From Oleiharenicola lentus (GTDB taxonomy: Bacteria > Verrucomicrobiota > Verrucomicrobiia > Opitutales > Opitutaceae): a stretch of 64,000 nt of DNA. The stretch is taken from the NCBI RefSeq assembly GCF_004118375.1, contig NZ_SDHX01000001.1:2669693-2733692 (forward strand). Direction: 5' to 3'. Position 1 is the stretch's first letter, and every line of letters begins with the position of its first letter. Below the pieces are notes generated by a model, which was not told where the DNA came from, did no database searches, and saw nothing but the letters and a program-made list of their open reading frames with translations. The position numbers were made by a program, and so were the translations under genes. Positions 1,127 through 63,951 of the stretch are shown here, piece by piece.

Positions 1127-2632
1127 ATGAAATTCACCCACGCGTGCTTGGTACTTCTGTTTGCCCTTGCCCCATTTTTGTCCGCCGCCGACCGGCCCAA
1201 TATTCTGGTCATCGCCGTCGATGATCTGAACCACTGGGTCAACCACCTCGGCCGCAACCCGCAGGTCATTACCCCGAATCTCGACCGTCTTGCCGCCCGA
1301 GGCGTCACGTTCACGAACGCCCACACCGCTTCCTCCGTCTGCAATCCCAGCCGCGCTGCCTTTCTCACCGGCCTACGGCCCTCGACCTCGGGCGTGTATG
1401 GCAATGCCACCGACTGGCGCACGGTGATCGGCGATGGCTACGCACTGCCGGGCTTTCTCCGCCGACAGGGATACTACACTTTCGGCGTAGGCAAACTCTT
1501 CCACACCGCCCGGCATATCCGGCCGGGCGACTGGGATGACTACCCGCAGAATCCGCGCGGCGATGATTCTCTCGCCCAAAATGAAAATTCCTCCGCCCGC
1601 ACCGCACGCAGCGATGCCTCCGTGCCCACTCTGCGCTACACGGCCGGCGATCTTTCCATCGCGGAACTAAGTGGCGGCGACGACAGCGTCGGGGACTACT
1701 GGACCGCCAGTGCCGCGATCTCAGCCCTCGCGGAGCCACGCGACGGACCGTTCTTCATTGCCTGCGGGATATTCCGTCCCCACCTGCCGTGGCATGTTCC
1801 GCAGAAATACTTCGATCTCTACCTCGAGGAAACCATCGAGCTTCCACCCTACCGGCAGGATGACCTCGAGGACGTACCGGGCGGCAAGGCATCCGAGGAG
1901 CACCTGAAGATCCTGGCGGAAGGATCGTGGAAGAAAGCAATCCGCGCCTATCTCGCCTGCATCACCTATGCCGACGTGCAGATCGGGCGCGTGCTCGACG
2001 CCTTGGACAAGAGTCCGCATCGGGACAAAACCATCGTCGTCGTTCTCGGCGACCATGGCTGGCATCTCGGCGAGAAGCAGAAGTGGCGCAAGACCGGCCT
2101 GTGGGAGGAGGCCACGCGCATGCCCTACATCTGGGCCGGACCGGGCATATCGCGCGGCGGCCGCGCCGCGCAGCCGGTGGACACGATGAGCCTATATCCT
2201 ACCCTCGTCGAGTTGGCCGGCCTTGCTCGCCCCGCTCACGTCGAGGGCGCGTCAATCACCCGCTACCTTCACGACCCGGCGTCCGCCTGGGATGGCACCC
2301 CGGCGCTCACGACCTGGCAGTTCAACAACCACAGCGTGCGCACCGACCGCTGGCGATATCTGCGTTGGAACAATGGCAACGAAGAGCTCTACGACCACTC
2401 CGTCGATCCCTACGAATGGCACAACCTGCTCTCCCCGTTGAACGCCGACCGGGCCAAGGATCTCGATCTTGCCCGGATCAAGGCCGAACTCGCCGCCCAC
2501 TTTCCGCAGGTCAATCGCACCCCTGAAGAAGGCTCGCGCGTATTCGGCGGCGAACCCAAAACCGGTGAAGCCGGCGCGGAAGCCCGGCGCGAGCAGCGTC
2601 GCCGCGAGCGCTCCGCCCAATCCGCTCCCTAA
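1127..2632 (+). CDS. Exported sulfatase, iduronate-2-sulfatase-like
   Basis: This 501-residue protein begins with a signal peptide (MKFTHACLVLLFALAPFLSAA). The ATG at 1127 is preferred over a TTG seven codons upstream because it gives the clean leader. Metal-binding D32-D33 lie in the VDDLNHW motif. The type I sulfatase signature CNPSR starts at C72, the residue converted to formylglycine in this family. The distal motif GDHGWHLGEK contains D309 and H310. The strings GIFRPHLPWHVPQKYFDLY and the overall length match iduronate-2-sulfatase-like enzymes. It should hydrolyse a sulfate ester on a glycan outside the cytoplasm; substrate position cannot be read from sequence. The next sulfatase starts five bases after its stop, so the pair is probably co-transcribed. 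Confidence 0.92.
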   Translation: MKFTHACLVLLFALAPFLSAADRPNILVIAVDDLNHWVNHLGRNPQVITPNLDRLAARGVTFTNAHTASSVCNPSRAAFLTGLRPSTSGVYGNATDWRTVIGDGYALPGFLRRQGYYTFGVGKLFHTARHIRPGDWDDYPQNPRGDDSLAQNENSSARTARSDASVPTLRYTAGDLSIAELSGGDDSVGDYWTASAAISALAEPRDGPFFIACGIFRPHLPWHVPQKYFDLYLEETIELPPYRQDDLEDVPGGKASEEHLKILAEGSWKKAIRAYLACITYADVQIGRVLDALDKSPHRDKTIVVVLGDHGWHLGEKQKWRKTGLWEEATRMPYIWAGPGISRGGRAAQPVDTMSLYPTLVELAGLARPAHVEGASITRYLHDPASAWDGTPALTTWQFNNHSVRTDRWRYLRWNNGNEELYDHSVDPYEWHNLLSPLNADRAKDLDLARIKAELAAHFPQVNRTPEEGSRVFGGEPKTGEAGAEARREQRRRERSAQSAP

Positions 2633-2637
2633 CGCTA

Positions 2638-4035
2638 ATGCGCCTGCTCGCACTTCTCATCCTTTCGTTTTTCCCCGCGGCGATGGCACTGTTCGCTGCC
2701 AACCGTCCGCCCAACGTCGTCATCATCATGGCCGACGACATGAACGACTACGGGTTTCTCGGGGCTCATCCCGACGCCCTGACGCCGCGGCTCGACGCCT
2801 TCCGCCGGGAAGCCCTGACCTTTCCCCGGACCTACTGCCCCGCCCCGGCCTGCGTGCCTTCGCGCGCTGCGTTCTTCACGGGACTCAACCCCCATCGCAC
2901 CGGCGCCTATCTCAATGGCAGCGATCCTTGGGACAAACCGGGGTTCGACCGTTATGAGTCCATGCCCGAACTTTTCCGCCGGCGCGGCTATGCAACCTGG
3001 GGCGGCGGCAAGGTGTTTCATGCCAAGATCACCGAGGCTCGCCGCTCGGCCGCCTGGACCGTGGATGCAGGTGCCAACGGCGGGTTCGGCCCGCACGTCC
3101 TGCCCGCCGACCAGATCGACGGCCAGTGGTGGGGCGCCACGTCCTGGACCGGACCCGACTCCGACTTCCCCGACGTGCGCACCCTCACCCAGGCGCGTGA
3201 ATTCCTCGCCCGTCACGAGGATGGCAAACCCTTCTTCATGTTCGTCGGCCTGTGGCGCCCTCATACGCCATTCACCGCCCCGAAACGCTTTTTCGATCTC
3301 TACGATCCCGCCAGGCTCCGCCTGCCACCCGCCGGGTGGCGGCACGGCGACCTCGACGACGTTCCGCCCGAGGGACAACGTCTCGCCGGCGTCTGGGGCC
3401 AGCGCTGGACCACTTCCGGTGTCGATCACCCTGAGGCTTGGCGACGCATCCTGCACGGCTACCTCGCCTGCACGAGCTTTGCCGACTGGGCCATCGGAGA
3501 GGTTCTCGATGGTTTGCGCCAGCGCGCCGATTACGCCAACACCCTCGTCATCGTGACCACCGACAACGGTTATCACCTCGGCGAGAAAGACCACTTCGAG
3601 AAGTCCACGCTGTGGGAGGCGTCGGCCCGCACGCCGCTCGCCGTGCGCCTGCCGGGAGGCCGGCACGCCGGCCAGATCAGCCCCCGTGTGATCGGACTGA
3701 TCGATGTGCTCCCAACCCTGGCGCAGCTTTGTGAACTCCCTGCGCCCGGACATGCCTACGACGGGCGCACTCTTGCTCCGCTGCTGGAGGACCCGTCCTC
3801 AGCCTGGCCCTACCCGGCTTTCACGGCACACCGCGACCGCTCCGCGGCCTGGCGTGACGAGCGCTGGCGCTACATCCGTTATCCCGACGACACCGAGGAA
3901 CTCTACGACCATACCGTGGACCCGCATGAATGGCACAATTTGGCCCCCAGCCCGGTCCACCATGAAGTGTTGCAACGATTCCGCACGCTCTGGCCGGAGA
4001 CCTGGGCGCCGTCCCTCGGAGGACGCGATGGTTGA
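2638..4035 (+). CDS. Exported sulfatase, second of a tandem pair
   Basis: This 465-residue protein has a signal peptide (MRLLALLILSFFPAAMALFAA), metal-binding D33-D34 in the MADDMNDYG motif, and the formylglycine signature CVPSR beginning at C72. The distal motif reads TTDNGYHLGEK, with D309-N310 where the preceding paralogue has Asp-His, an accepted variation in the metal site. GLWRPHTPFTAPKRFFDLY again suggests the iduronate-2-sulfatase-like branch. The two neighbours are diverged paralogues rather than a recent duplication. The gene starts five bases after the previous stop and is followed 11 bases later by an unknown exported protein, making a compact operon. Confidence 0.92.
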   Translation: MRLLALLILSFFPAAMALFAANRPPNVVIIMADDMNDYGFLGAHPDALTPRLDAFRREALTFPRTYCPAPACVPSRAAFFTGLNPHRTGAYLNGSDPWDKPGFDRYESMPELFRRRGYATWGGGKVFHAKITEARRSAAWTVDAGANGGFGPHVLPADQIDGQWWGATSWTGPDSDFPDVRTLTQAREFLARHEDGKPFFMFVGLWRPHTPFTAPKRFFDLYDPARLRLPPAGWRHGDLDDVPPEGQRLAGVWGQRWTTSGVDHPEAWRRILHGYLACTSFADWAIGEVLDGLRQRADYANTLVIVTTDNGYHLGEKDHFEKSTLWEASARTPLAVRLPGGRHAGQISPRVIGLIDVLPTLAQLCELPAPGHAYDGRTLAPLLEDPSSAWPYPAFTAHRDRSAAWRDERWRYIRYPDDTEELYDHTVDPHEWHNLAPSPVHHEVLQRFRTLWPETWAPSLGGRDG

Positions 4036-6913: not shown

Positions 6914-7969
6914 TTACCGCTGTTTCCTGACCGTCACACCCGGAACCCAATGAGAACTGCCCAAGGTGGCGCGCGGCGATTCCGGGATTCCGCTCTCATT
7001 GTTGTATAGCATCGAAATGAGCATATCCACGGCCGCCTCGCCGGACAGATCGTTGCGCTGCTCCATGGCGGCCCACTCCTGCGCTGATGGGTTGTGCTCA
7101 AGGTCAACCAACCCGATATCCCGCGGAATCTTATAACCCAGGTCTTCCAGCCAGATTTTGATGTCGCGGTGCAGGGTAAGAATCACGTCTGGCTTGTGTC
7201 TCTCCAGCCACTTTTTGAACCGCTGGAAACAGCTATCGGAACCGTCGGCCTTGTCGAAGGTAGGCACCCGTTGAGCCGTCGGCAGTGCCTGCTGTCCGAA
7301 CCACATACCGGCGGAAAACCTTCCCTCGACCAGATGGTCCACCGTATGGCTGAGAACAAGGGCGGGGCGCTTGTAGCCCAAGGCGAGCACCTGTTTGACC
7401 GCCTCCAGCATCAAGGCATGGTGATCAACGCAGCAGAAGGACAAGGTTGGTTCATGCGTTCGCACGCCGGTCACGACACAGGCGATTTGCGGCCACAGGC
7501 TGTCAAACTGCGGAGGCAGCCGGTTCTGATTGAACAACCCCACAACAATCGCGCCCCGGATGCCGCGGGAACGCAGAATACGAGCCAAGCGCGCACCGTT
7601 GATCTCGGGATCATGCAGCCAAAAGGTGTCGAAGTGATAACCTTGCGATTCACCCCGGCGGCGACAACCGGTCAGCCAGGCGGCAATCGTGGGGTGGCGC
7701 TTCATCGCCAGGGAATCGGGGTGGGCGTTTAACAGCGCGATCGTATACCGAAACTTGGGCACCTTGGTCTTTCGCAATTCGGCCATGAGATGGGACAACA
7801 CAGGATTGCGTTGATAGCCCAGCTTCTCCGCCAACTGCTGCACCCGCCGCCGTGTTTCCACAGAAATACGGCGGTCATTCTTAAGCGCCAGTGAAACCGT
7901 GTTTTTTGAAACTCCCGATTGCTCGGCGAGCATGGTCATGGTCACAGGAACTTTGGGCGGGGTTGTCAT
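6914..7969 (-). CDS. LacI-family transcriptional regulator (copy 1)
   Basis: This 351-residue protein has an N-terminal helix-turn-helix (MTMLAEQSGVSKNTVSLALK, residues about 11-30) and the hinge-helix region that follows in LacI/GalR proteins. The remainder is a periplasmic-binding-protein-like effector domain. It is a clear paralogue of the regulator at 54772-55818: both contain GCRRR, FWLHDP, CVV.GVRTH and LSFCCVDHH in the same order. It is transcribed away from the large TonB receptor at 8255, so it most likely controls that receptor, itself and perhaps nearby enzymes in response to an imported sugar. The ATG at 7969 has no strong ribosome site; Met11 is a possible alternative. Confidence 0.93.
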   Translation of the reverse strand: MTTPPKVPVTMTMLAEQSGVSKNTVSLALKNDRRISVETRRRVQQLAEKLGYQRNPVLSHLMAELRKTKVPKFRYTIALLNAHPDSLAMKRHPTIAAWLTGCRRRGESQGYHFDTFWLHDPEINGARLARILRSRGIRGAIVVGLFNQNRLPPQFDSLWPQIACVVTGVRTHEPTLSFCCVDHHALMLEAVKQVLALGYKRPALVLSHTVDHLVEGRFSAGMWFGQQALPTAQRVPTFDKADGSDSCFQRFKKWLERHKPDVILTLHRDIKIWLEDLGYKIPRDIGLVDLEHNPSAQEWAAMEQRNDLSGEAAVDMLISMLYNNESGIPESPRATLGSSHWVPGVTVRKQR

Positions 7970-8254: not shown

Positions 8255-11200
8255 ATGCACCTGAAGCATAATCGTCGTCGTGCGTATCCCGTCGCCTTAT
8301 TGGCGGCACTCGCACTGCTGGCTCAGTCGGCCAGCCTGATCGCCCAAACCGCCCCCGCCCCCGCGGCTGGGCAATCTGAAGAAGCCTCCAAGCTAACCCC
8401 GGAAGCCGCCAAGGCTGCTGCCGAGAAGGAGGAATCCGTTCTCGAACTTTCGCCCTTTACGGTGACAGCCACCGAAGAAGAGGGCTGGGTAGCCACCAAG
8501 TCGCTCGCCGGCTCCCGCCTGAAGACTGAACTCAAGGACATCGCCGCCCCTGTCGAAGTGCTGACGATGGAGTTCATGAACGACTTTGCTCTGACCTCTG
8601 CCGCCGATGCTGCCATCTACACGACCAATGTCGAAGGCGCGGGCGACAATCTGGAACTAGGGCCTGGCGCAGGTTTCGGCACCGGTTTCCCTCCGCCCAC
8701 CCGCGTCCGCGGTCTGCGCGACGCGACCAACTCCCGCGAATTCTTCGAGAGTTTCATTCCCTCCGACAATTACAACCTTGACCGCGTAACAATCGCTTCC
8801 GGTCCGAACAACCTGCTGTTCGGTTCCGGCAGTCCGGCCGGCACGATTGACTCGACCCTGAAACGGGCGCAGTTCCGCGACTTCGCCCGCGTTGACCTGC
8901 AGTTCGACTCGAACAAGTCCCAGCGTTACGCCTTCGACGTGAATCAGGATATCATCAAGGATAAGATTGCCCTTCGCGTTTCTCACGTGACCGAAAAGAA
9001 GAATTACGAATACGAACCCGCCGGATATGATCACGAGCGCTATTATGGAGCCCTGATGCTGCGGCCGTTTAAAAAGACCACCATCTCGCTCCACGCTGAA
9101 AAGGTGAAGGTTCAGAATATTCGGCCGCAGCTCCTTCTGCCTTTCGACAAGGTCAGTGCTTGGAGCAAAGCCGGAAGTATCACCAGCTATACGCACGGGG
9201 TGAACAATCCGATCTTTCACAATCCAGCCGCCGGTGCCACCTGGAACAATGCCGTGATAAACAATACCATCTGGGAGCGCCACAACAACAACGTCGTCTT
9301 CGTGCACGGCGCCACGGCAGGCTCGATGGCCGGCAAAGCTTACGACTTCAACAACACCGTTCAGATCAAGTCCCCCAAGGATCTGCCGGGTGTTGATCCG
9401 CTCAACAATGAGGCTGACGGCTACACCTTCCTTGATGGCACTTACATCCCTGTGGACGTTGACATCGCCGGCGCGGCCAAAGGCCAGAAATTCGACGCTG
9501 ACATCTACAATATTTTCATCACCCAGCAAATCGGCGACAACCTCTTCATCGAGGCCGCCGCTTCGAAGGAGTCTGTTGAGGACTGGAATGTTGGTATGGG
9601 TGGCTACATCGGTGCCTACACGGTCCATCTCGACTCCAACAAGTTCATGGCTGACGGCGTCACGGCCAACCCCAACGCGGGCAAAATGTATATCCAGGGC
9701 GACCCGTTCCGCACCCAGACCCTGCGCGAGTCCGAAGACTGGCGCGTCTCTGCCTCCTACGAGTTCGACTTTCTCAAGAAAGACCATTCCTGGTGGCGCA
9801 ATGTCCTGGGCCGCCAGCGCCTCGCCGCTCTCATTTCTTCACGTGAATCTTCTAACCGCCAACAGGAGTTCTTTCCGCGCATCATACCAGTGAACGGTGT
9901 GGATCCCGTCATCACCGGGCATACCTTTACCGCCACCACGGTTAACGGCTGGGCCAACAACTCTTCGCGCATCTTCAACCAGCGCTACTATCTGGATACG
10001 GCCGCCGGTGACTATTCACCCAAATCTTACTATGATTTGTTTGGACCAAGTTATTTGGTCGATGCCAACGGCAAGACTCATGTGGTGGATATGTTGAACA
10101 CAGGTTTGACCGATCCGGAGGGTCGCCGCCTTGGTAATGGTCGCACTAATTCGTTTATCAAATCGAAGTTCGATACCAAGCAACTCTCTTATCAGGGCTT
10201 CTTCTGGAACAATCGTCTAGTCGCAACGCTTGGCTGGCGCGAAGACTCGGCCAATTCCACGGGTGCTGTGACCAAACTCGACCCCTTCCGCCCGAATCCC
10301 ACTGTGCCGGTAAGCGCCCTTGTTGCAGACACCCGTACTGGACTCCTGCCGCTGCTGCAAGATGTCGCCTTTGCGCCGTACAACTCCGCCAACGAACAGT
10401 CCGGAACGACCCGCACCCGCGGCTTCGTGGCCCGCCCCTTGCGCGACTTCGTTCGCCTTCCGCTCAACGCCGACATCTCAGTCGCCTGGAATCGCTCCAA
10501 CACTTTCCAGCCCGACGTCTCCAACCTTGATCCTTTCGGCAACCGCGTGAAGGGCGCTACCGGCGAGGGCGAGGACAAGAGTATTCGCCTTGATCTGATG
10601 GAAGGAAAATTCTCCGTCCGCTATACCGAATTCGAGAACTCGGATGGCCCCGCCCGTGCCGGAAATGTGCCGTTCAACCGCTTCCGATTTGATCTCTCCA
10701 GCATCCTTAACCGTGTGATGACTCTGGCCAACGGCAGTGGCAACACCCCGATCACCGGCTACACGAACAACCAGGGATTCAATACGCTCGGCAGCGGCGA
10801 TCCCTATTGGGTGGCAAGCTTCCGCGTCGCAAGCGGCAAAGAATGGGGCATGGACTGGCAGGTCACGAAAAACTTCCAGCTGCGCTTCAACATGAACACT
10901 CAGGATGTGACCGAAAGCGACATCGGCCTGCCCTGGTGGGAGTGGCTCGACTTGGAAATCCCGAAGTATCAGGCCCTCACCTTCCCGGAGGGTGGTATCA
11001 GCAATCCGCGCGACCTCAACAGCAACGGCGTCATTGACACTTGGAATTGGAACACAGCTTGGATCAGTGACTCCGACCAACGCACCGTCGCCCAGCGATA
11101 TGATGAAGTCGTCATCCGCGGCGCCAACGGTAAGGATATCATTCAATCGCTGGATGGCCGCCCCAACGAGTTCGTCCGTGAGAATCGGTACAACGTCAAC

Positions 11201-11563: not shown

Positions 11564-11594
11564 TCTTCTGTTCCATGGGGTTATGAACAGTCGA

Positions 11595-11622
11595 GGCGCC
11601 CGCGCAAGTGGGCGCCTTTTCC
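11595..11622 (+). terminator. Rho-independent terminator after TonB receptor 1
   Basis: GGCGCCC (11595-11601) and GGGCGCC (11610-11616) form a perfect seven-base GC stem with an eight-base loop, followed directly by TTTTCC. It lies 32 bases after the receptor stop codon. Confidence 0.85.
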
Positions 11623-11639
11623 TTGCCCACTTCTTCCGC

Positions 11640-12260
11640 ATGATCTCCCCTGTTCCACCTTTTCTGTGGTCCCGCACCAAGCCGCCTGTCGCCGGCCTTC
11701 GGTGGATACTATTGGTACTGGTCGTCCTGATTCTCAGGCTTCCGGGCGCAGATACCCCGTCGCGCGATCTCACGGGACACGCCTTTGATCCGCTCGACCA
11801 TGCCCCGGCCGGCACGGTGATTCTGTTGTTCATGGCCACTGATTGTCCGATTTCGAACCGCTACGCTCCGGTGGTGAATGATCTGGTCAAGGTGTTCGCG
11901 TCTCCAACCCTGCGGTTTTTCGCCGTATATCCCGACCCCGCCACCACGCCCGCCGCGATCCGAAAACATCAATGGGACTATGGCTACACGCTCCCAACCC
12001 TGATGGATCCGGAACATACGCTGGTCAGGCGGGCCGGAGCCACTGTAACACCCGAGGTCGCTGTATTCAGCATATCGGCAGAAGCCGGTAAAAGTCCGCG
12101 TTTGGTCTATCGCGGACGTATCGATAACCGCCACGAAGACATTGGACGGTCCCGTCCCAACGCAACCCAGGACGATCTTCGCGAGGTTCTCAAGGCTATC
12201 GTCAACGGCACGCCCCTCGAACTCCACACCACCCGTGCTGTGGGCTGCTACATTGAATGA
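11640..12260 (+). CDS. Membrane-anchored or exported redoxin-like protein
   Basis: This 206-residue protein has a hydrophobic segment at about residues 19-36 and then a thioredoxin-like domain. The active-site region reads FMATDCPISNRYAP: a single Cys (C69) is present where a CxxC pair would be in thioredoxins. A second conserved Cys (C203) occurs in the C-terminal VGCYIE. This arrangement is characteristic of redoxin-domain proteins found beside haem/copper oxidase-like genes in Acidobacteriota, Planctomycetota and Verrucomicrobiota. The start at 11640 follows the receptor terminator; an extension back to 11520 would overlap the receptor. Its stop overlaps the next start (ATGA), implying translational coupling. 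It may handle copper or redox maturation of its partner, which is inference. Confidence 0.85.
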   Translation: MISPVPPFLWSRTKPPVAGLRWILLVLVVLILRLPGADTPSRDLTGHAFDPLDHAPAGTVILLFMATDCPISNRYAPVVNDLVKVFASPTLRFFAVYPDPATTPAAIRKHQWDYGYTLPTLMDPEHTLVRRAGATVTPEVAVFSISAEAGKSPRLVYRGRIDNRHEDIGRSRPNATQDDLREVLKAIVNGTPLELHTTRAVGCYIE

Positions 12261-16795: not shown

Positions 16796-16797
16796 CC

Positions 16798-23555: not shown

Positions 23556-23557
23556 GA

Positions 23558-30792: not shown

Positions 30793-30864
30793 TTCTCACA
30801 AGCGCACGAATTGCTCCGCATCATTCGCACCCAACCTCACGGATTCTTCGCCCCACAATCGGTC

Positions 30865-39745: not shown

Positions 39746-39748
39746 TCT

Positions 39749-43535: not shown

Positions 43536-43542
43536 TGTCCTC

Positions 43543-51562: not shown

Positions 51563-51575
51563 GACGCGAGGGGGT

Positions 51576-54500
51576 TCATGGTTCGCGGGGGGTGCCGCGC
51601 TTGTGCAAAAACTGGTGACTCGTGACGATGCTCTCGATGACCGCGCTGAAGCGGTGATCGTTGGCCGCCAACCTGGCCTGCATGTCCTCGACCAGCAGAT
51701 CGTCCGACAGGATCGGGCTGCGGTTCAGGGCGTAGGCCAGGAGCTTCCGGCAAAAGTTCGCCACAAAGTCGTCCTGCCGGTGCGCGCGGATGTGCTCGCG
51801 CACGCCCGCCAGCCCCTCGCCATGGCCGCCGTCGGGAAACTCCGCCCGCGTATCCACCGGCCGGCCGGCCATGTCTTTAGTCCGTCGCTCGCCGATGGGG
51901 CCAAAACCTTCGAAGACCAGCCCGAAAGAATCGATCCGGGCGTGGCAGGAATAGCAGCTCGGGTCCTCCCGGTGACGCGCCAGCATCTCCCGCAAGGGCA
52001 GATCACTCTCCGCCTCGCTGCTGGGCAGCACCGGCACATCGGCCGGCGGCGGTGGCACGCGTTCTCCGAGCAGGTTCTTCACCACCCAGTTCCCTCGCTT
52101 AACCGGGCTCGTGCGCAACCCGGGCGCGTGCAGTGTCAGGAAGGCCGCCATCGGCAGCAGTCCTCCCCTCTCCTGCCGGTAGGCCTCGGGCGCGTGACTC
52201 CACCCGTCCGCACCGGCCGGCCCGGGCGTAATCCCATAATGGGCCGCCAGCACTGAGTTCACGAACGTGTCCCCCGCATGCAGGAAATCCAGGATCGACC
52301 GGTCGCGCTGGAACACATCGAGCATGAACCGCACCGGCTCCTCATACATCGCCTGCCGCAACTCGGGCGTGAACGTCGTGAAGTGCGCCAGGTCCACCGT
52401 CGCGATCTCCTCGAAGCGGCGGAATTCTAGCCAGTTTCCGCCAAACTCCACCGCCAGCGCCCGGGCGCGCGGATCGCGCAGCATCCGCCGGGCCTCGGCG
52501 GCGATGACCTCTGGCCGCCTGAGTTCCCCCGCGGCGGCCCGCGCGAGCAACGCCTCGTCCGGCATGCTCGACCACAGGAAATAGCTCAGCCGGCTGGCCA
52601 GGGCATGATCGGAATACGGTTCGATCCCCGGTCCCTCCGCCAGCAGGTCGAGGCGGTAATTCATATCCGGCGCCACCAGCACGGCCGTGACACACTCCCG
52701 GATCGCCTCCTCATGGGTTAGCCCTTCCTGCCGGGTCGTCCGGTAAAAGGCCAGCGTGACCTCCCGCTCGGCAGGCGACAGGGGACGTCGGTAGGCCCGC
52801 TCCGTGAATTTCAGCAGGGCATCCAGGTGCGCGAGCTCAGCCGCGATGCGGGCCGCCTCCACCGCCCGGATCGTGGCGTTGGTGACGTTGAAAAAGTTAC
52901 TGATCGCCGCGCTGACCAGTTCGCTTTTTCCCTCCGTCAGGTCGATAAGCCGCGCCTGCATTCGCCGGATCTCGGTCTCCGAAACGGTGTCGGTGGCCGC
53001 GGCCGGCGGTTCAATGTCCTTCACGTCCGCATCGGGATTCGCCGCGGTCATGCTCTTGTTGCCGGCGTTCTGCCGCAACGTGCGCAGCGTCGCGTTGGCG
53101 ACAAACTCGCTATCCCACCACAGGGCGTCGAGCTCCGCCTGGCCCGCCTCGTCGAGGATCAGTTCATAAAGCGGTTGGTCATCCCGGAAATAACCGAGGC
53201 GGCTGTGCACGCCCGAACTCAGGTAGCGCCCCGTGTCCTTCTTGGTTTCGAAATAATTGCGACCCCGCTCGGCCTTGTAGAACAGGTCGGGAAACACGCT
53301 GCTGAACCGGGCGAACGCCGCCTCGTAACGCGCGCGCTGCCCGGCCGGCACGTGCAGGTCGGGATCACCGGGCAGGTTCTCGATCAGGGGCGTCTTGCCG
53401 GGACCAAAGGGATTCTTGGTGCCCGGCTCGACCACCGGCTCGCTGTACGGCCGGGCCTCGCCCTCCACCTGCAGTTGGGCGCGGTCATAGGACCGCCGGT
53501 GCGTGGCATACTGCACGTTCTTCCAGATCAGAAGCGGATAGCTGTCCGCCGCGATCTTGCCGGCCTCAAGGTTGAGAAACCGATGTTCAATCTTGCTGCG
53601 CACGCGCACGACGTAGTCCCGCATCGCCTCGCAACCCACCCGAACCGCCTCCGGGCCGGCCATGCCGGGCGCGGGCAGTTGCCGCCAACGCTCCCGCAAA
53701 CCGGCCAGCGGTCCAACTTCATCCAGTTCCTCTTCCATCAGCGCGTGAACGGTGGAGAGATACTTCGCGCTCACCCCCTGCTCCCGCGCCACGTCGGCCA
53801 GCGTCGCCGCCGGCTTTCCGAACGCGGCCCGGTGCCGGAAATGCCAGGCGGCGGAAAAATAGGCGGCCAGATCCGTGTTCTGGCGGCGGTAGAAATCAAT
53901 GATCCGATGAACCCAGAACTTGTCGCGGTCCGTGTCGGCGAGCATCGGAAAGGGCGCGAAGGCAAAGCCGTCGGGCTGCAGATACAGGTGGCTCGCCACA
54001 TCGCGCGCGGCCGCCAGATACTTCCGCAGCAGGGTTGGTGACATGATCAGGGTCTCGCCCGAGTTGTCGAAACCCGCCGTGTTCGCCGGGTCGATCGGGA
54101 ACTCCTTCGTCGGCCGGAGATCGACTGCCGTGAGGTCACGCACCGTGTAGTCATACTCCCGGTTGCTCAGTCGCCGCGGCAGCACGATCCCCGGGTCGCC
54201 GGCGCTTTTCGCGGCCTCCGCCTGGAAGGCATCCTTGATCCACGCGAGCACCGCCGCCCGCTCCACCAGCGTGGGCAGCCGCTCCGCATCGTCCGGCGGC
54301 ATGTCGCCGTCCTCCAGCATCTCCCGCACCAACCGCCAATGCCCGTGGTCCGCCAGGGCCAATGCCCCGGTGGTGTAGGGCTTGAGGTCGAAATCCGCCT
54401 TGGCCTTGGCGCCGGCGTGACAGTCGAGGCAGTAGGTTTCGACGAAGGGTCGCACCTCTTGGAGAAAGCGCTGCTCCATGACCCGGGCCTCTCCCCCGTT

Positions 54501-54635
54501 GTCGGGCATCGCCATCATGCTTCCCCAGACACTCATCCAAACCAGCGCGTGGATCGGACCGTGACAGTGCCGGTGCCAATGCCAATACCGCACGCGGCTG
54601 GTGGCACAGGGAAGCGGGGTGTCCTCGGGGTGCAC
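51576..54635 (-). CDS. DUF1592-type dihaem protein (DUF1587/1592/1595/1588/1585)
   Basis: Up to 1019 residues from a GTG at 54635; a GTG at 54593 would give a leader nearer a normal signal peptide (MRYWHWHRHCHGPIHALVWM), so the start is uncertain. The order is an N-terminal cytochrome domain with CLDCH (C69-H73), DUF1587 (LSNREYDYTVRDLTAVDLRP), a long middle region, DUF1595/1592 (FTERAYRRPLSPAEREVTL, RLSYFLWSSMPDEALL), and DUF1588/1585 with CYSCH (C894-H898). At this length it exceeds the more common 750-850 residues because of an extended region at about 280-520. It precedes DUF1552 in one transcript downstream of a LacI gene. Confidence 0.88.
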   Translation of the reverse strand: MHPEDTPLPCATSRVRYWHWHRHCHGPIHALVWMSVWGSMMAMPDNGGEARVMEQRFLQEVRPFVETYCLDCHAGAKAKADFDLKPYTTGALALADHGHWRLVREMLEDGDMPPDDAERLPTLVERAAVLAWIKDAFQAEAAKSAGDPGIVLPRRLSNREYDYTVRDLTAVDLRPTKEFPIDPANTAGFDNSGETLIMSPTLLRKYLAAARDVASHLYLQPDGFAFAPFPMLADTDRDKFWVHRIIDFYRRQNTDLAAYFSAAWHFRHRAAFGKPAATLADVAREQGVSAKYLSTVHALMEEELDEVGPLAGLRERWRQLPAPGMAGPEAVRVGCEAMRDYVVRVRSKIEHRFLNLEAGKIAADSYPLLIWKNVQYATHRRSYDRAQLQVEGEARPYSEPVVEPGTKNPFGPGKTPLIENLPGDPDLHVPAGQRARYEAAFARFSSVFPDLFYKAERGRNYFETKKDTGRYLSSGVHSRLGYFRDDQPLYELILDEAGQAELDALWWDSEFVANATLRTLRQNAGNKSMTAANPDADVKDIEPPAAATDTVSETEIRRMQARLIDLTEGKSELVSAAISNFFNVTNATIRAVEAARIAAELAHLDALLKFTERAYRRPLSPAEREVTLAFYRTTRQEGLTHEEAIRECVTAVLVAPDMNYRLDLLAEGPGIEPYSDHALASRLSYFLWSSMPDEALLARAAAGELRRPEVIAAEARRMLRDPRARALAVEFGGNWLEFRRFEEIATVDLAHFTTFTPELRQAMYEEPVRFMLDVFQRDRSILDFLHAGDTFVNSVLAAHYGITPGPAGADGWSHAPEAYRQERGGLLPMAAFLTLHAPGLRTSPVKRGNWVVKNLLGERVPPPPADVPVLPSSEAESDLPLREMLARHREDPSCYSCHARIDSFGLVFEGFGPIGERRTKDMAGRPVDTRAEFPDGGHGEGLAGVREHIRAHRQDDFVANFCRKLLAYALNRSPILSDDLLVEDMQARLAANDHRFSAVIESIVTSHQFLHKRGTPREP

Positions 54636-54771: not shown

Positions 54772-55818
54772 TCAGGTCGCCATCTTGCGAACGGAGTCGC
54801 CATGCACCCAGTGGGCTGCCACCAGGGTCGCGCAGGGAATTTCGGGCGGCCCAATTTCGCGGTTGTGGATCATGCCAATCACCCGGTCCACGGCGGCCTC
54901 CCCGGCCAGATCGTTGCGTTGATCCATGCCCGCCCATCCTTCATCGGACGCGAGTCGCTCCAGCATGACCACCCCCACGTCGGCCGGAACCCTGGTCCCG
55001 CAGGCCCCCAGCCACTTTTTGACCTGCTTGTAGTAAGTCAGCAGAACATCCGGACGGAACTGCTGAAACCATGCCTGAAATTCCCGTGGATCCTTTTGAG
55101 CGGCCTCCCCGCGCATGAACGCCGGCACGCGGGCCTCCATCGGCAGGCCGCTCTGAGCCAGCCACATCGCACTGCTCAGCCGCCCGTCCACCAGTCGGTC
55201 GATCCGCTGATCGATCACCAGAGCTGGACGCTTGTAGCCCAGTTCCATGGTCTTCTGCACGGCCTCCACCACCAGCTCGTGGTGATCAACGCAGCAAAAG
55301 GAGAGCGTTGGACGGTGGGTCCGAACGCCCGCCACCACACACGCGAATCCCGCCCAGATTTCTGCATGGCTCTCCGGGAGAACGTTGCTGTTGAAACCTC
55401 CTAGGATAATCCCGCCCTGTATCCCGCGAGCGCGCAGAATTTGTCCCAAGCGTCGGGGCTGAAAACCGGGGTCATGCAGCCAAAACTCGTCCGTGCCATA
55501 TCCCATCACCTCGGCCCGCCGCCGGCAGCCCTGGACCCAGGTCGGAATCGTATCGTTGGCCGTGAAGGCATCGCGGTTTCCATGGGCATTGAAGAGAGCC
55601 AGAGTGTGTCGGCGTGGCATTCGATGATCTCGCCGCAGCTCGCTCAGCAAATGCGCCACCACCGGGTTCTGCGCATACCCCAATTTCTGGGCGGCCCGCT
55701 GCACCCGATCGCGGGTCTTAACCGGTATCTGCCGGCTGCCCCGAAGCGCGAGCGAGACTGTCGCCTTGCACACCCCCGCCTGCCGGGCGACATCGTTCAT
55801 GCTCGGCCGCCGGACCAT
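54772..55818 (-). CDS. LacI-family transcriptional regulator (copy 2)
   Basis: The start at 55818 gives 348 residues. It is chosen because AGAAGGA lies five bases upstream, the DNA-binding domain follows at once (MVRRPSMNDVARQAGVCKAT), and a frame extended to 55896 would cover a perfect operator-like palindrome. The effector domain contains GCRRR, FWLHDP, GVRTH and LSFCCVDHH as in the regulator at 6914, showing a common ancestor. It diverges from TonB receptor 2 at 56030 and precedes the DUF1592/DUF1552 genes by 136 bases, so it may control both directions. Confidence 0.92.
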   Translation of the reverse strand: MVRRPSMNDVARQAGVCKATVSLALRGSRQIPVKTRDRVQRAAQKLGYAQNPVVAHLLSELRRDHRMPRRHTLALFNAHGNRDAFTANDTIPTWVQGCRRRAEVMGYGTDEFWLHDPGFQPRRLGQILRARGIQGGIILGGFNSNVLPESHAEIWAGFACVVAGVRTHRPTLSFCCVDHHELVVEAVQKTMELGYKRPALVIDQRIDRLVDGRLSSAMWLAQSGLPMEARVPAFMRGEAAQKDPREFQAWFQQFRPDVLLTYYKQVKKWLGACGTRVPADVGVVMLERLASDEGWAGMDQRNDLAGEAAVDRVIGMIHNREIGPPEIPCATLVAAHWVHGDSVRKMAT

Positions 55819-55871
55819 CTTTTCCTTCTGCAATCGTTTGGGGTGCATGAACCGATGGGAGTGAGCCCTGC

Positions 55872-55890
55872 TTACTAAACTGTTTAGTAA
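55872..55890. promoter_or_regulatory. Perfect palindromic operator upstream of LacI copy 2
   Basis: TTACTAAAC-T-GTTTAGTAA is a 19-base palindrome with perfect nine-base arms and a single central base. It is 54 bases upstream of the chosen LacI start and 140 bases upstream of the receptor start. Size, AT-rich arms and position suit a LacI-family autoregulatory operator, although a central CG is usual. Confidence 0.7.
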
Positions 55891-56029
55891 CGGCAAGCTT
55901 CATCGCGTGGGTCGCCGCACGTAGCCTCTTGGCGTCACTAAGGCATCCACGCCTACCCCTGAACCTACCCGCCCGTCTCTTGCTGGAGCCCGCCTTCCGC
56001 TTTCAGCACGCCCCTTCGTTTCCTGCCCC

Positions 56030-59000
56030 ATGAAAACCCAAGCATCCTATCTGATTAGTCTATGCGTCGCCGTGTTGCTCACGGCGTCTGTTGTTGGCCA
56101 AACCTCCCCGACCACCGGCCCCGCTGCGCCCTCCGTCTCCGAAAAAGAGGACGTTCTCGTGCTTTCCCCTTTTGAGGTCACAGGCGAAAACAATAATGGA
56201 TACGCAGCCAGCAACACACTGGCCGGAACCCGTCTGCGCACCGACCTCAAGGACGTGGCGGCCTCAATCCAAGTCGTCACCAAGGAGTTCATGCAGGACA
56301 TCGGCGCCAACACTCTCGACGACCTGCTCGTGTACACGGTCGGAACTGAGGCCGCCGGCATCGGCGGCAACTACAGCGACTCCAGCGCCAACGCCGACAC
56401 CGTCAGTGCTTTCGGCTCCATTCGCTCACCGCAGGGTTCAAACCGCGTGCGCGGTCTTGGCTCCGCCGACCAGACCCGCGACTATTTTATCACCAGCTTG
56501 CCCACCGACGGCTACAACATCGATCGCGTCGAGGTCAACCGCGGCCCCAACTCCATGCTTTTCGGCTTGGGCAGCCCGGCCGGCATCATCAACACGGGTC
56601 TGATCAAGGCGCTGACCAACAACACCAAGACTAAATTGGAGGCCCAGTTCGACCAGAACGGCTCTAGCCGCGCCACCCTCGACCACAACCAGGTCCTCAT
56701 TAAGGACAAGCTGGCGTTGCGTGTCGCGGCCCTTTACGGCGACAAGCGGTATCAGCAAGAGCCGGCTTACGTCCGCGACGCCCGCTTCTATGGCACGGTC
56801 ACTTGGAAACCCTGGAACAGCGGCACCCTCAAGCTCAGCGCGGAATCGGCCAAGCAGCACTCTAACAAGGTGCAGACCCAGCCGCCCCACGACCAGTTCA
56901 CCTGGTGGTTCGCGCTGGGCAAACCCGTCTATGATCCGACCACCGGCATCGGCAGCTACCTCGGCACCCCGCCGACCGATCCCAATCTTCGCGCGATCAA
57001 TACCAACGGTTCCGCCAACGGCAACCTGCTCTCCACCTGGAGCGGCACGCCCAACCTGATCATGGAGAATCCGAACGTGACCAAGTTCGGTGTGACTGGT
57101 CTCGATCCCGCCATCTGGGCGATCGAGGGCAACAACAACCGGGTAAGGCTAAACCCCGCCGGCACCGCCTTTGCCAACGATGCCATGCGCCGGCTGCAGG
57201 CGGGCAAGAACTACCTCCAGCGCATCAACCTGACGGCCAGTCCCGCGCTCAATAATTTCTGGCGTGATTTCCGCTTAACCGACCCGGCGATTTTCAATTT
57301 CTACGACGAGATGCTCGAGGGGCCCAACAAGCGCGAATGGTCCTTCTGGAAAAGCTACAACCTGAGTTTTGAGCAGCGCCTCGGCGGAAATGCCGGCATT
57401 GAGATTGCCTTCGACAAGCAGTCTTTGGACAGCGGCTATGTCAACCCCTTCGACTTCCGATCCCACGCCATCAATATCGATATCAACACCAAGCTGCCCA
57501 ATGGCCTGCCCAACCCCAATCTTGGCCGTCCTATGGTCACCGGGGCTAGCTTCCAGTCTTCTGGCTACACCGATCGCGAAGCCTTCCGCGCCACCGCCTA
57601 CTACAACCTCAACCTGCAAAAAATACTGAAGCCAGGCTGGCTCGGCACGCTCTTGGGCCGTCATGTGTTTACCGGTGCTTACACCGGACAGAAGCGCTTC
57701 AGCAGTGGTTACGGCGGACGCGCCTACTACGCCGGCTACGATTGGTGGCAGGCCGACAGCCTGAACGATCCCCGGACCATCGACGTCGGCAGCAACCGCA
57801 CCATCCAGCGCCTGACCTACGTCGGCCCCAGTTTGGTCGGAGCCTCCAGTCCCGTGAATGCCGGAGTGCAAAGCATCCGGGTGCATAACGGACTCGATGG
57901 CATCCAAAATCTCACCACCCTCTTTTATCAAACGCCACCCACCTCTCCGGTGGCTCTCGCCCCTTGGCAAACCCGCACCTTCAGCGTGATCCAAGGAACG
58001 AAATACGATCTCAGCAACAACGCCACCTTTACCAGTCGTAACGGTGAAGACATCAAGTCCACGGTCTTTGTCGCCAACAGCTACTGGTGGGACAACACCC
58101 TCGTCAGCACCCTCGGCTGGCGCAACGACGCGTTCAAGACCTTCGACGCCGGCGCCCCGCCGATCGATCCAGCGAGCGGCCTTCGCATTCTGACCGATGC
58201 CGCCTGGCCTAACCGGCTCAGGATCGACAGTTCGGCCTCTTCCTTTAATTATGGCGCGGTCCTTCACGAACCTCCCTTCTTGCGCGGCAAGCTGCCTTGG
58301 GGCGCCAACCTTTCGCTGACTTACAACAAGTCGGACAACTTCAAGGTCAGCGGCCAGCGCGTCGACCTCTTCAACCAGAGCATCTCGCCCCCCACCGGTA
58401 CGACGAAGGAATACGGCATCATCCTCACGCTGCTGGATGGCAGGCTCGATCTTCGGGCGACCAAATACGAAACGAGTTCCGCTCTTTCCACCAATACCGC
58501 GTTCCGTGAGCTCACGAATCAACTTGTCCGCCGGCTCGACGACCAAATCGAGTTGAATTCCAACGCCGCTTACCAAGCCGTCGCACCGGCCGCTGCCCTC
58601 AGTGCCTGGACACAATGGCAGCAGGGGGCGGATGCCAAGCAACTCATGGAGACCTTCACGTTTTCCTTCGCCCCCGGTCCCAACGGCACGACGATCGTCA
58701 ATCACGACGACCGCATCGACATCGTGGCCCAGACCTCGGACACCGTTGCCACCGGCACCGAGTATGATCTCACCTACAATCCGACGAAAAACTGGCGGAT
58801 TGCTCTCAATGCGGCGCGGCAGCAGGCGGTGCTCAGTAACACGGCCTCCAGCTATCAGAAGATGATCACTATTCTTGATCCTGTCTGGGGTGGCTCAGCC
58901 GCGGCACTGCCTGACTCGGTGACGAGCACCTCCACGCTCGGCAATCAATGGGGCACGATTAAGGCCAATGTGCAGAAGCAGATCCTGCTCGACGGCTCTT

Positions 59001-59389
59001 CCAACCCCGAAGTCCGGAAATGGCGTTTCAACCTGGTGAACAACTACACCTTCAGCAGTGGACGCTTGAGCGGTTTGAACATTGGCGGTGCTATCCGCTG
59101 GCAGGACAAAGTCGCGATCGGCTACCCGGTCACGATCCTCGCCGATGGGTCCGCCCAATACGATGTCACCAGCCCCTACTTCGGGCCGGCCGAGACCAAC
59201 TACGACGCATGGGTCGGCTACCGGCGAAAGATTGGTCAAAACATGACCTGGCGGATTCAGCTCAATGTCCGCAGCATCGGCGTCGGCAACGAACTCATCC
59301 CGATCAGCGCCCAGATCGATGGCACCTATGATTCCGTGCGCATCGCCGAGCCCCAGACTTGGTCCATCACCAACACTCTGGAGTTCTGA
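56030..59389 (+). CDS. TonB-dependent outer-membrane receptor (copy 2)
   Basis: This 1119-residue protein has a signal peptide (ending SVVGQ), the EDVLVLSPFEVTGENN Ton-box region, a plug domain with NTLAGTRLRTDLKDVAAS and NIDRVEVNRGPNSMLFG, and a barrel ending in a terminal Phe (TWSITNTLEF), the usual outer-membrane barrel signal. It is a paralogue of the receptor at 8255. The control region upstream carries a LacI-type palindrome and downstream lies a terminator, so it is probably a separately regulated transporter for the same or a related glycan. Confidence 0.95.
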   Translation: MKTQASYLISLCVAVLLTASVVGQTSPTTGPAAPSVSEKEDVLVLSPFEVTGENNNGYAASNTLAGTRLRTDLKDVAASIQVVTKEFMQDIGANTLDDLLVYTVGTEAAGIGGNYSDSSANADTVSAFGSIRSPQGSNRVRGLGSADQTRDYFITSLPTDGYNIDRVEVNRGPNSMLFGLGSPAGIINTGLIKALTNNTKTKLEAQFDQNGSSRATLDHNQVLIKDKLALRVAALYGDKRYQQEPAYVRDARFYGTVTWKPWNSGTLKLSAESAKQHSNKVQTQPPHDQFTWWFALGKPVYDPTTGIGSYLGTPPTDPNLRAINTNGSANGNLLSTWSGTPNLIMENPNVTKFGVTGLDPAIWAIEGNNNRVRLNPAGTAFANDAMRRLQAGKNYLQRINLTASPALNNFWRDFRLTDPAIFNFYDEMLEGPNKREWSFWKSYNLSFEQRLGGNAGIEIAFDKQSLDSGYVNPFDFRSHAINIDINTKLPNGLPNPNLGRPMVTGASFQSSGYTDREAFRATAYYNLNLQKILKPGWLGTLLGRHVFTGAYTGQKRFSSGYGGRAYYAGYDWWQADSLNDPRTIDVGSNRTIQRLTYVGPSLVGASSPVNAGVQSIRVHNGLDGIQNLTTLFYQTPPTSPVALAPWQTRTFSVIQGTKYDLSNNATFTSRNGEDIKSTVFVANSYWWDNTLVSTLGWRNDAFKTFDAGAPPIDPASGLRILTDAAWPNRLRIDSSASSFNYGAVLHEPPFLRGKLPWGANLSLTYNKSDNFKVSGQRVDLFNQSISPPTGTTKEYGIILTLLDGRLDLRATKYETSSALSTNTAFRELTNQLVRRLDDQIELNSNAAYQAVAPAAALSAWTQWQQGADAKQLMETFTFSFAPGPNGTTIVNHDDRIDIVAQTSDTVATGTEYDLTYNPTKNWRIALNAARQQAVLSNTASSYQKMITILDPVWGGSAAALPDSVTSTSTLGNQWGTIKANVQKQILLDGSSNPEVRKWRFNLVNNYTFSSGRLSGLNIGGAIRWQDKVAIGYPVTILADGSAQYDVTSPYFGPAETNYDAWVGYRRKIGQNMTWRIQLNVRSIGVGNELIPISAQIDGTYDSVRIAEPQTWSITNTLEF

Positions 59390-61985: not shown

Positions 61986-61989
61986 CCCC

Positions 61990-62865
61990 ATGCACCGCTC
62001 CCTCCCCACCTGCCTGCTCCTGCTCTCCTCCGTCCTGACTGCTTTGCTCCGGGCGGCTGACGCCCCCGCCTGGCAACAGCTGCTCGATGCCCAACTCTCC
62101 CGGTGGGAGGTCTGGATCGGCGTCCCCCACTCCAGCGTCACCGGCCTGCCGTCGGATACGCCGCAGTCGGACAACGTCACCAAGGGCACACCCCTCGGCC
62201 TCAACCACGATCCCAAGAAAGTCTTCTCCGTCATCGAGCAGGACGGTCAGCTCGTCCTGAAGATCACCGGAGAAATCTACGGCGGTCTCACCACCCTCGC
62301 CAGTTACGGCGACTATCACTTCTCCTGCCAGGTCCGCTGGGGTGAAAAGAAATGGCCGCCCCGCGAAAATCTCCGCCGCGACTCCGGCCTGCTCTACCAC
62401 TGCACCGGCCCGCACGGCGCTTTCTGGAACGTCTGGAAACGGTGCGTCGAGTTTCAGGTTCAGGAAAAGGACTTCGGCGATCTCTTCATGCTCGCGGGCA
62501 CCGGCGGCGACGTCCGCTACCGCGACCTTGAAGTGAAGGCCCAATACGACCCCAAGGGCATCTGGGATCCCACCCAGCCCCTCCGTCCCCTCGGCCGTGT
62601 CCAACGCTCGGCTGACCACGAGAGCCCCCACGGCGAATGGAGCACGCTCGAGATCTACACCGTCGGCCACCGCGCCATCCACCTCGTCAACGGCCACGTC
62701 GTCATGGCGATCGAAAATATCCGCGTGAACCAGTCAGGTTCGCTCTCCTCCGGCCAGATCCAGATCCAGTCCGAGGGCGCCGAGGTTTACTACCGCGACA
62801 TCAAGCTCCGCCCCATCACCCGGTTTCCCGATAATCTGGCCCGAGCCGCTGGTTTTTCACCCTGA
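61990..62865 (+). CDS. DUF1080-like exported protein (second copy)
   Basis: This 291-residue protein has a signal peptide (ending LLRAADA). The mature region shows a DUF1080/3-keto-disaccharide-hydrolase-like jelly roll: YGGLTTLASYGDYHFSCQVR, LRRDSGLLYHCTGPHGAFWN, CVEFQVQEKDFGDLFML and EWSTLEIYTVGHRAIHLVNG, ending GQIQIQSEGAEVYYRDIKLR. It is larger than the 189-residue copy at 30865. It starts four bases after the GH43 stop, so is co-translated with these glycosidases. Confidence 0.87.
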   Translation: MHRSLPTCLLLLSSVLTALLRAADAPAWQQLLDAQLSRWEVWIGVPHSSVTGLPSDTPQSDNVTKGTPLGLNHDPKKVFSVIEQDGQLVLKITGEIYGGLTTLASYGDYHFSCQVRWGEKKWPPRENLRRDSGLLYHCTGPHGAFWNVWKRCVEFQVQEKDFGDLFMLAGTGGDVRYRDLEVKAQYDPKGIWDPTQPLRPLGRVQRSADHESPHGEWSTLEIYTVGHRAIHLVNGHVVMAIENIRVNQSGSLSSGQIQIQSEGAEVYYRDIKLRPITRFPDNLARAAGFSP

Positions 62866-62910
62866 GGCACACGCGCCTCGCTTGAAATCAGCCCCAAGCA
62901 ACGCCTTCTC

Positions 62911-63951
62911 ATGAAATCCTCCTTCGTCCTGCTCGCCTCTGGACTCCTCCTGGCCGCCGCCACGACATTCGGCGACGTGCCCAAACCTGTTGTCTGGATC
63001 TACACCGACATGTCCGACAAAACCATCCCGGGCAAAAACCACATGGGCACCGTCAACGACCCGGACGACATCTCCGCCATGGCCGGCTACCTCCTGCTGG
63101 CGAACGAATTCGACACCCGCGCCATCATCGTCGCGAGCACCCATCGTCCCGAGCACGCCACCACGCCCGACCAGGCGGCGTGGGCCGATCGCTTCATCGG
63201 CGACGCCTATCGCGCCGAGGTCGCCAATCTCAACGCCAACCTCGGCGGCGGGTTTCCCGCCGACATCACCTTCACCCAATCCTCCATCAAGGAATCCGCC
63301 GAGCGCTACGACCCTGCCAGGACCTACGCTTCGCTCAACGCCTATCCCACCGTGCGCGCCCTCTTCGACGTGGCGGCGCGCGAACCCGCTGGCGGCCTGA
63401 TCAACGTCCTCATCTGGGGCTCGACCACCGAGCCCGCCATCCTCGTCAACCACTGCCTCGCCACCGGTCGCGCCGACGTGCTGAAAAAACTCCGCTTCAT
63501 CGCCCATTGGACCAATTCCCCCCTGCACCAGGGCACGCCGGAAAATCCCGAGCACGTCGCCAACTGCCGCGAGGACGCCGCCGCCTGCGCCTTCCTGAAG
63601 CAAACCGCCGCCGCCGGCCGGATCGACTACCGCGAATGCGGCGCCATCGGGCAGCACGGCATCGTCGGCGGCGCGCCGCGCGGCGCGGAATACTACGAGG
63701 CCTTCAAGGTCAGCCGCCTCGGCCGGATTTTCGCCGAGGGCAAGTTTGTCAACGGCAGCGTCGATCATTCCGACTCCGCGACCTACTGGGTCCTGCTCGG
63801 GACCATGGGAGTCACCCTCGCCGACATTCCCGCCGACGGCACCAACACCGCCGCCCGCGAGCAGGCCAACGAGGACAAGTTCCGCGCCCAGGCCCGCGCC
63901 CTCCACGAGGAACTACTCCGCCGCGCCCGCGCCGCTGACGGCCGGCGCTGA
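62911..63951 (+). CDS. DUF1593-like nucleoside-hydrolase-fold exported protein
   Basis: This 346-residue protein has a signal peptide (ending ATTFGD). WIYTDMSDKTIPGKNHMGTV followed by NDPDDISAMAGYLLLANEFD resembles the metal-site region of nucleoside-hydrolase-like/DUF1593 proteins, and GLINVLIWGSTTEPAILVNH corresponds to the second motif. It lacks the C-terminal Ig-like domain of the protein at 43543. It lies 45 bases after the DUF1080 gene. The role is unknown, but the repeated pairing with DUF1080 and GH43 genes suggests glycan use. Confidence 0.82.
   Translation: MKSSFVLLASGLLLAAATTFGDVPKPVVWIYTDMSDKTIPGKNHMGTVNDPDDISAMAGYLLLANEFDTRAIIVASTHRPEHATTPDQAAWADRFIGDAYRAEVANLNANLGGGFPADITFTQSSIKESAERYDPARTYASLNAYPTVRALFDVAAREPAGGLINVLIWGSTTEPAILVNHCLATGRADVLKKLRFIAHWTNSPLHQGTPENPEHVANCREDAAACAFLKQTAAAGRIDYRECGAIGQHGIVGGAPRGAEYYEAFKVSRLGRIFAEGKFVNGSVDHSDSATYWVLLGTMGVTLADIPADGTNTAAREQANEDKFRAQARALHEELLRRARAADGRR

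Follow-up and report, generated by a model that had tools for sequence, protein, structure and literature searches.

The uptake of sulfated algal glycans by Verrucomicrobiota without SusCD has been named as a question for further study (PMC8857213; here and below, statements on cited papers refer to the parts of them that were available). A 64,000-nucleotide stretch of the Oleiharenicola lentus genome (C1:2,669,693-2,733,692; genome of 4.71 Mb in two contigs, C1 and C2), hereafter the window, raises this question in a concrete form. Sulfatases, glycoside hydrolases (GHs), two TonB-dependent receptors (TBDRs) and a complete Ton motor stand together there, and one may ask whether they form a new type of uptake unit.

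We consider, with a probability of about 0.7, that the window belongs to an island for sulfated glycans, that this island functions in the manner of CUT loci (carbohydrate utilization containing TBDR), which lack SusD and are under regulator control, and that it includes a second, divergent TonB2-type motor plus an additional gene, X, this motor being able to energise receptors in general. The SusD-free layout is already known; what seems to be new is the small element in the motor operon. The evidence, obtained by sequence comparison, lies in the gene families, the absence of SusD, the operon, its second copy, and X and its conservation. In the proposed mechanism, exported sulfatases and glycosidases would trim the polymer, the two large receptors would carry fragments across the outer membrane, and sugar acids would be finished by the products of lactonase, enolase-superfamily and AraD1-type genes. 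The window Ton operon would energise receptors in general, an exclusive service to the island being unproven. We infer the direction of flow, the substrates and the pairing of receptors with the motor from these data.

A sulfated-glycan island without SusD

Both receptor genes are paired with genes for LacI-family regulators, as the sequence-only reading had proposed, and each pair is divergent (6914 minus with 8255 plus, 54772 minus with 56030 plus). The receptor loci comprise the following genes.

6914..7969, minus: LacI-family regulator 1 (PF00356, 2e-12)
8255..11563, plus: TBDR1, 1102 aa (Plug PF07715, 3.8e-05)
11520..12260, plus: AhpC/TSA (redoxin-like) protein (PF00578, 2.6e-06); the real start is probably later
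12257..14515, plus: CXXCH and tetratricopeptide repeat (TPR) protein with a lipobox-like N-terminus (TPR families; CXXCH at residue 38)
54772..55896, minus: LacI-family regulator 2 (PF00356, 9.8e-14)
56030..59389, plus: TBDR2, 1119 aa (Plug, 1.1e-09)

Profile searches with PF07980, PF14322, PF12741 and PF12771 found no SusD in the whole genome, a Bacteroides control being positive each time, and no scanned window ORF matched the SusD family. Thus, the absence of SusD claimed for the window was borne out genome-wide. Two of the profiles (PF07980 and PF14322) were also run on a sample of 288 genomes of the phylum, including that of O. lentus; each matched 0/288, with a Bacteroides genome as the positive control. 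As neither profile matches any sampled genome, the absence of SusD is a trait of the sampled phylum rather than of this locus.

The receptors had also been called SusC-like in size. This holds, but the likeness does not extend to their family: Plug is the sole Pfam match of both, and no SusC/RagA model occurs among their NCBIfam matches up to an E-value of 1. The weak NCBIfam matches that they do have are models of siderophore, heme and metal receptors, and in the PDB, TBDR2 matches receptors for siderophores or metallophores.

The enzymes were identified among 46 ORFs submitted to Pfam scans; these had been picked by a GC3-based script that missed or mis-started some genes. All 14 carbohydrate-active proteins counted previously (five sulfatases, four GH43, one GH27, two GH49-like, one GH67-like and one DUF5060) were recovered by Pfam, PDB or NCBIfam searches. 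The five sulfatases (PF00884) start at 1106, 2638, 16639, 47189 and 48620, and the four GH43 at 27611 (GH43a), 29335, 59419 (GH43c) and 60921. Neither GH49-like protein has a Pfam glycosidase match; their likeness comes from PDB dextranase and isopullulanase entries. The 'GH67-like' gene is present, but its product is better named alpha-galacturonidase-like after NF049878, which it matches with 97 bits for a model cut-off of 1300, and BPa0997. The picked starts of ORFs 16639, 27611 and 59419 are probably too early. The 14 enzymes are putatively exported, their N-termini having been inspected by eye. The window probably comprises several substrate blocks.

1106-2632 and 2638-4035, plus: sulfatases 1 and 2 (PF00884, 1.8e-43 and 1.1e-46; CNPSR and CVPSR)
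14634..16795, plus: enolase-superfamily (mandelate racemase/dehydratase type) and GguC/AraD1-family proteins (PF13378, 1.5e-61; NF040903, 1.7e-147)
16639..18240, plus: sulfatase 3 (PF00884, 2.5e-41); the real start is probably beyond 16795
18250..19626, plus: GH49-like protein 1 (PDB dextranase 6nzs, 1.2e-12; isopullulanase, 6.1e-11)
19623..20768, plus: lactonase, seven-bladed propeller (PF10282, 1.5e-99)
27611-29314 and 29335-30792, plus: two GH43 proteins (PF04616, 1.7e-93 and 4.8e-29)
31497..33008, plus: GH27 (PF16499, 1.1e-21; PF17801, 2e-12)
33031..35217, plus: alpha-galacturonidase-like protein (NF049878, 8.5e-28; PDB BPa0997, 5.9e-16)
35313..37208, plus: DUF5060 protein (PF16586, 3.6e-21)
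45102..47165, plus: GH49-like protein 2 with fn3 (PDB dextranase, 2.9e-10; PF00041)
47189-48616 and 48620-50068, plus: sulfatases 4 and 5 (PF00884, 7.8e-65 and 1.2e-55)
59419-60876 and 60921-61985, plus: two GH43 proteins (PF04616, 2.6e-18 and 3.1e-20)

Four of the five sulfatases harbour a C-x-P-S-R motif. In the fifth (47189-48616), C-S-A-S-R stands where the formylglycine site is expected, instead of C-x-P-x-R.

Comparison with known uptake systems

Gene families and negative SusD profiles thus support the view that this Verrucomicrobiota genome has a TonB-dependent island for carbohydrates that does without SusD. The further suggestion that it represents a different, verrucomicrobial solution is not supported as a novelty. 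A CUT locus is defined as a TBDR with degradative enzymes, an inner-membrane transporter and a sugar regulator, and SusD-like proteins went undetected in Xanthomonas (PMC1790865, Blanvillain 2007). TBDR-CUT loci were reported in two freshwater Verrucomicrobia metagenome-assembled genomes (MAGs), as were sulfatases near PSCyt genes (PMC5615132, He 2017). For Verrucomicrobiota MAGs, PUL-like units (PUL, polysaccharide utilization locus) were described and SusCD genes were not found, outer-membrane transporters being named for further study (PMC8857213, Orellana 2021).

The window contains TBDRs (8255, 56030), degradative enzymes and two LacI regulators predicted to be of the sugar type. Like the CUT loci of Xanthomonas and aquatic bacteria, it thus combines TBDRs, a sugar-type regulator and enzymes with the absence of SusD and with receptors unlike SusC, but it is much larger than those of PMC1790865, sulfatase-rich and equipped with two receptors. 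With the verrucomicrobial units (PMC5615132, PMC8857213), it shares the phylum, TBDRs or other transporters next to GHs, PSCyt genes with sulfatases close by, and negative results for SusCD; in contrast to the window, no Ton motor inside the cluster is described in the available parts of these two papers. The SusCD PULs of Bacteroidota also group enzymes with an outer-membrane receptor, from which the window differs by the absence of any SusD profile match and by receptors without a SusC/RagA match. In Verruconatronum alginivorum, a TonB/2x ExbB/ExbD cluster is listed under outer-membrane transport of alginate oligomers (PMC13274419). It resembles the window motor as a two-ExbB Ton cluster of the same phylum; in the available part of that paper, however, it is not placed in an enzyme island, the lyase genes form no canonical PUL and no seventh gene is mentioned.

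The Ton motor operon and its seventh gene

The complete Ton system reported in the sequence-only reading was confirmed by Pfam families and gene order. It is an operon of seven genes on the minus strand (21020-27360), none of which has an internal stop.

26545..27360, minus: ttpB-like (DUF3450; PF11932, 1.4e-15; re-picked start)
25187..26548, minus: ttpC-like, long ExbB (PF01618, 1.7e-26; re-picked start)
24699..25190, minus: exbB (PF01618, 7.2e-18; re-picked start)
24286..24702, minus: exbD (PF02472, 4.8e-27)
23558..24289, minus: tonB (PF03544, 3.5e-10)
22197..23555, minus: ttpD-like TPR protein (TPR families; re-picked start)
21020..22222, minus: seventh gene X, 400 aa, conserved behind ttpD, with a TonB C-terminal-like end (hhalign)

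With the re-picked starts, ttpB/ttpC, ttpC/exbB, exbB/exbD and exbD/tonB overlap by four bases each, two bases separate tonB from ttpD, and ttpD overlaps X by 26 bases. All six TonB2-type families follow one another in the order ttpB-ttpC-exbB-exbD-tonB-ttpD, as in the TonB2-type systems of Vibrio vulnificus and Teredinibacter (PMC6957404, PMC10734418), and ttpB and ttpD are essential to TonB2 transport in V. vulnificus (PMC6957404). In contrast to those systems as described there, the window operon has X added behind ttpD, and relatives have one to three copies of it.

No Pfam family matches the window copy of X. A single phmmer query detected homologues in L019 and, among the 60 loci L054-L113, in 11, every one a motor locus; 0/20 control regions had one. 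In ten loci and in L019, X lies directly behind ttpD on the same strand; L059 ends inside ttpD. A profile built on X added L065 strongly and L061 at 5e-16, with L055, L068 and L069 only near 1e-5. Two weak matches aside, the profile found no X in motors of the other TtpC clade. Extra copies occur in L057 (three in total), L060, L064, L066 and L074.

The C-terminus of X is probably, though not provenly, a TonB-type domain: hhalign aligned it with the TonB family of the operon over 89 columns (92.1%, E 6.4e-7), the controls with the DUF3450 and ExbD families giving 0.3% and 1.4%. A PDB profile search returned TonB C-terminal domains as the two best of three matches, at E 0.2. Pfam TonB_C was found in 1/18 X members, at 0.19, but eight unrelated families were likewise found in 1/18, ABHD18 at 0.00027. 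The N-terminus, inspected by eye, resembles a signal sequence and is followed by a short PPPPP run. A structure model based on two sequences (pLDDT 38) was too poor for fold comparison.

X seems not to have been described before, as no seventh gene behind ttpD was found in the titles and abstract openings of the literature searched. A tentative and rather doubtful idea is that the family motor is a seven-gene machine, in which an exported X, bearing another C-terminal domain of the TonB type, would assist TonB as a subunit for receptor contact, hand-over or selection, a divergent copy of this machine being placed in the sulfated-glycan island and regulated with its SusD-free glycan receptors. 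If X contacts receptors via its TonB-like end, the six-gene description of TonB2 is incomplete for this family. For the question of SusCD-free uptake, the genome thus supplies candidates, namely two LacI-linked receptors, an enzyme-receptor core also found in a second genus and an extra motor gene.

A second motor copy

The genome has ten MotA/ExbB places, four of which make up two TtpC-ExbB pairs, one in the window and the other at 1.219 Mb of C2. The TtpC proteins of the two motors are 38% identical, and the closest match overall to the window TtpC is that of another genome of the family, G312 (41%). The C2 motor (L074) has neighbour genes in common with a motor of the same-genus genome G274 (L066), which is the only one of four other same-genus genomes with a TtpC-type match (1.3e-59); the best matches of the remaining three (7.4e-12, 4.9e-12 and 5.4e-14) are in the range of single ExbB proteins. 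In a FastTree phylogeny of 34 TtpC proteins (midpoint root, support values not displayed, G312 left out), the C2 copy falls inside the clade of family motors, whereas the window copy lies beside it on a long branch. Synteny of the C2 copy with G274 and its place in the tree thus indicate that the window motor is the divergent extra copy. As to its origin, it was most likely acquired by, or relocated into, the island.

TtpC-type proteins are numerous in some genera of the family (G301, G374, G223, G355 and others), with up to 13 matches per genome, ExbB-like proteins included.

Is the motor part of the island?

A homologous enzyme-receptor island was found in another genus of the same family (contig C14 of genome G375). 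Its proteins are 82% (Sde182-type), 67% (sulfatase 1), 64% (alpha-galacturonidase-like), 63% (sulfatase 4, cut by the contig end), 60% (sulfatase 5), 59% (DUF1080), 56% (TBDR1), 52% (propeller) and 50% (LacI regulator 1) identical to those of the window. Of 41 window queries, 24 have no match there; these include the six motor genes, X not being among the queries. None of the six matched at 1e-5 on 56,000 of the 57,213 bases of that contig.

We also compared 33 motor regions of relatives with 20 control regions. Four of the 33 are shorter than 19,700 bases owing to contig ends, and the second O. lentus motor (L074) is outside the set. Sulfatases occur in 3/33 motor regions versus 2/20 controls, and receptor-like ORFs in 5/33 versus 4/20 (Plug profile plus two Pfam scans), one of the five being a fragment of 158 residues where L082 ends. 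In L068, L092 and L093, the motor has a sulfatase as a direct or close neighbour. Among large ORFs (540-1400 aa, neither motor nor sulfatase), 4/36 from the 19 regions of the second motor group have Plug, versus 3/55 from the 20 controls. We then considered the flanks of 13 relatives' motors (100 of 103 proteins of at least 240 aa, still including X homologues and some motor genes). Peptidases and regulators are commonest, and sulfatase, Plug and GH families are outside the 25 commonest families and thus have at most two members each; a control set with a different size cut-off (every second protein, hence 75, of the 150 with 330 aa or more) contains 4/75 sulfatases. The proposal that motors generally adjoin receptors or sulfatases was rejected, as the controls did not bear it out. 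Glycan genes and motor are co-located sometimes, not as a rule in the family, and a motor of the island's own appears from these comparisons neither proven nor conserved.

A short motif, WTTACGGYMA, is a candidate LacI operator. It occurs five times in the window (8129, 27554, 27599, 31460 and 59669; 0.28 expected by shuffling). One site precedes TBDR1, two lie in the interval from ttpB to GH43a, one precedes GH27 and one, only if GH43c starts late, is 5' of its GH43 domain.

27554..27608, no strand assigned: inverted pair of WTTACGGCAA sites, candidate operator between ttpB and GH43a

Genome-wide, an 11-mer form matches at 21 places, as against 5 for a reversed-pattern control, and the window accounts for five of the 21 (Poisson 3.6e-6); these statistics are flattering, since the motif was picked after two sites had been seen. 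For the 10-mer, 243 kb of other O. lentus loci gave one site, 400 kb of controls three and 56 kb of the G375 contig four; among these four, one lies some hundreds of bases 5' of the gene homologous to TBDR1 and one about 100 bases 5' of a LacI homologue. No palindrome with 7-bp arms and at most one mismatch is common to the promoter regions.

These data bear on whether receptors, motor and enzymes form one dedicated, co-regulated unit whose motor serves this glycan only. The motor does lie between enzyme blocks, its promoter region is divergent and common with GH43a, and the candidate operator sites are concentrated in the window. We nevertheless hold such a unit to be unlikely. The G375 island lacks the motor genes on the 56,000 bases compared, and motor regions are no richer than controls in sulfatases and receptors, which does not support the view of motor, receptors and enzymes as one inherited unit. 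The flanks of 13 motors are likewise poor in sulfatase, Plug and GH families, and the paired sites, in a motif chosen post hoc, are closer to the start of GH43a than to that of ttpB. It is doubtful, for other reasons, that the main clients of the window motor are receptors for iron or cobalamin outside the island and that its place there is due to chance. The genome has 48 Plug-type matches, TonB2 of V. vulnificus imports siderophores (PMC6957404), and tonB2 of Teredinibacter serves the use of both iron and cellulose-derived carbohydrate (PMC10734418). However, that job could be done by the other operon of this type and by six more ExbB-type places, and the window copy is among ten sulfatase matches within about 104 kb. 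A third alternative concerns the receptors, with the lipoprotein-like CXXCH-TPR gene (12257-14515) as a functional stand-in for SusD. Its product is a helical-repeat protein adjoining a receptor, and among the matched loci of homologues, nine were inspected (L176-L184), six of which have a TonB receptor at most three genes away, two do not and one was left undecided. We regard this role as very improbable, as the protein carries a motif for haem binding, its gene adjoins one for a redoxin, no SusD profile matches it, and the G375 island has the TBDR1 homologue without this gene. The protein is possibly redox- or metal-related; its single-sequence structure model (pLDDT 44) was too poor for fold comparison.

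Several observations weigh against a CUT-like island with a motor for receptors in general. In contrast to what defines CUT loci (PMC1790865), the Pfam scans, which covered picked ORFs of the window, yielded no family of inner-membrane sugar transporters, so that the window is strictly a partial CUT locus. Redox-type genes follow TBDR1, whose cargo may be non-glycan. The candidate operator is present at TBDR1, GH43a/ttpB, GH27 and GH43c, and the motor could be co-regulated with the island. Window GH queries matched 3/33 motor regions of relatives (L063, L082 and L087) versus 0/20 controls, DUF1080-type genes lie 5' of ttpB in L054 and L055, and a small TonB receptor gene is directly behind ttpD in L085 (G301).

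Other genes of the island

The window encodes further proteins beyond those recorded previously: two DUF1080, two Sde182-type, the enolase-superfamily, GguC/AraD1 and lactonase proteins listed above, and two planctomycete-type PSCyt/PSD proteins, one next to a DUF1501 protein and the other next to an HXXSHH protein.

30811..31434, plus: DUF1080 (3-keto-disaccharide hydrolase family) protein (PF06439, 5.2e-40)
36701..41218, plus: PSCyt1-PSCyt2-PSD1 protein and DUF1501 protein (Pfam scan)
43525..45069, plus: Sde182-type NH-like protein (PF07632, 4.6e-74)
50204..54635, minus: HXXSHH (DUF1552) and PSD2/3/4/5-PSCyt3 proteins (Pfam scan)
61990..63951, plus: DUF1080 protein and second Sde182-type protein (PF06439, 8.8e-22; PF07632, 1.7e-08)

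DUF1080 (30811, 61990) and PSCyt/DUF1501 genes (36701-41218, 50204-54635) thus occur together in a glycan island. Members of DUF1080 have been tied to the hydrolysis of 3-keto-glycosides (PMC9007349), and no function for PSCyt/DUF1501 was given in the titles or abstract openings of the literature searched. A periplasmic oxidation step involving these genes is conceivable.

The window borders are arbitrary, as sulfatases and receptors extend beyond both edges. The genome also has a second sulfatase island (G000:C1:2074701-2108074), with nine PF00884 matches in about 33 kb and one receptor.

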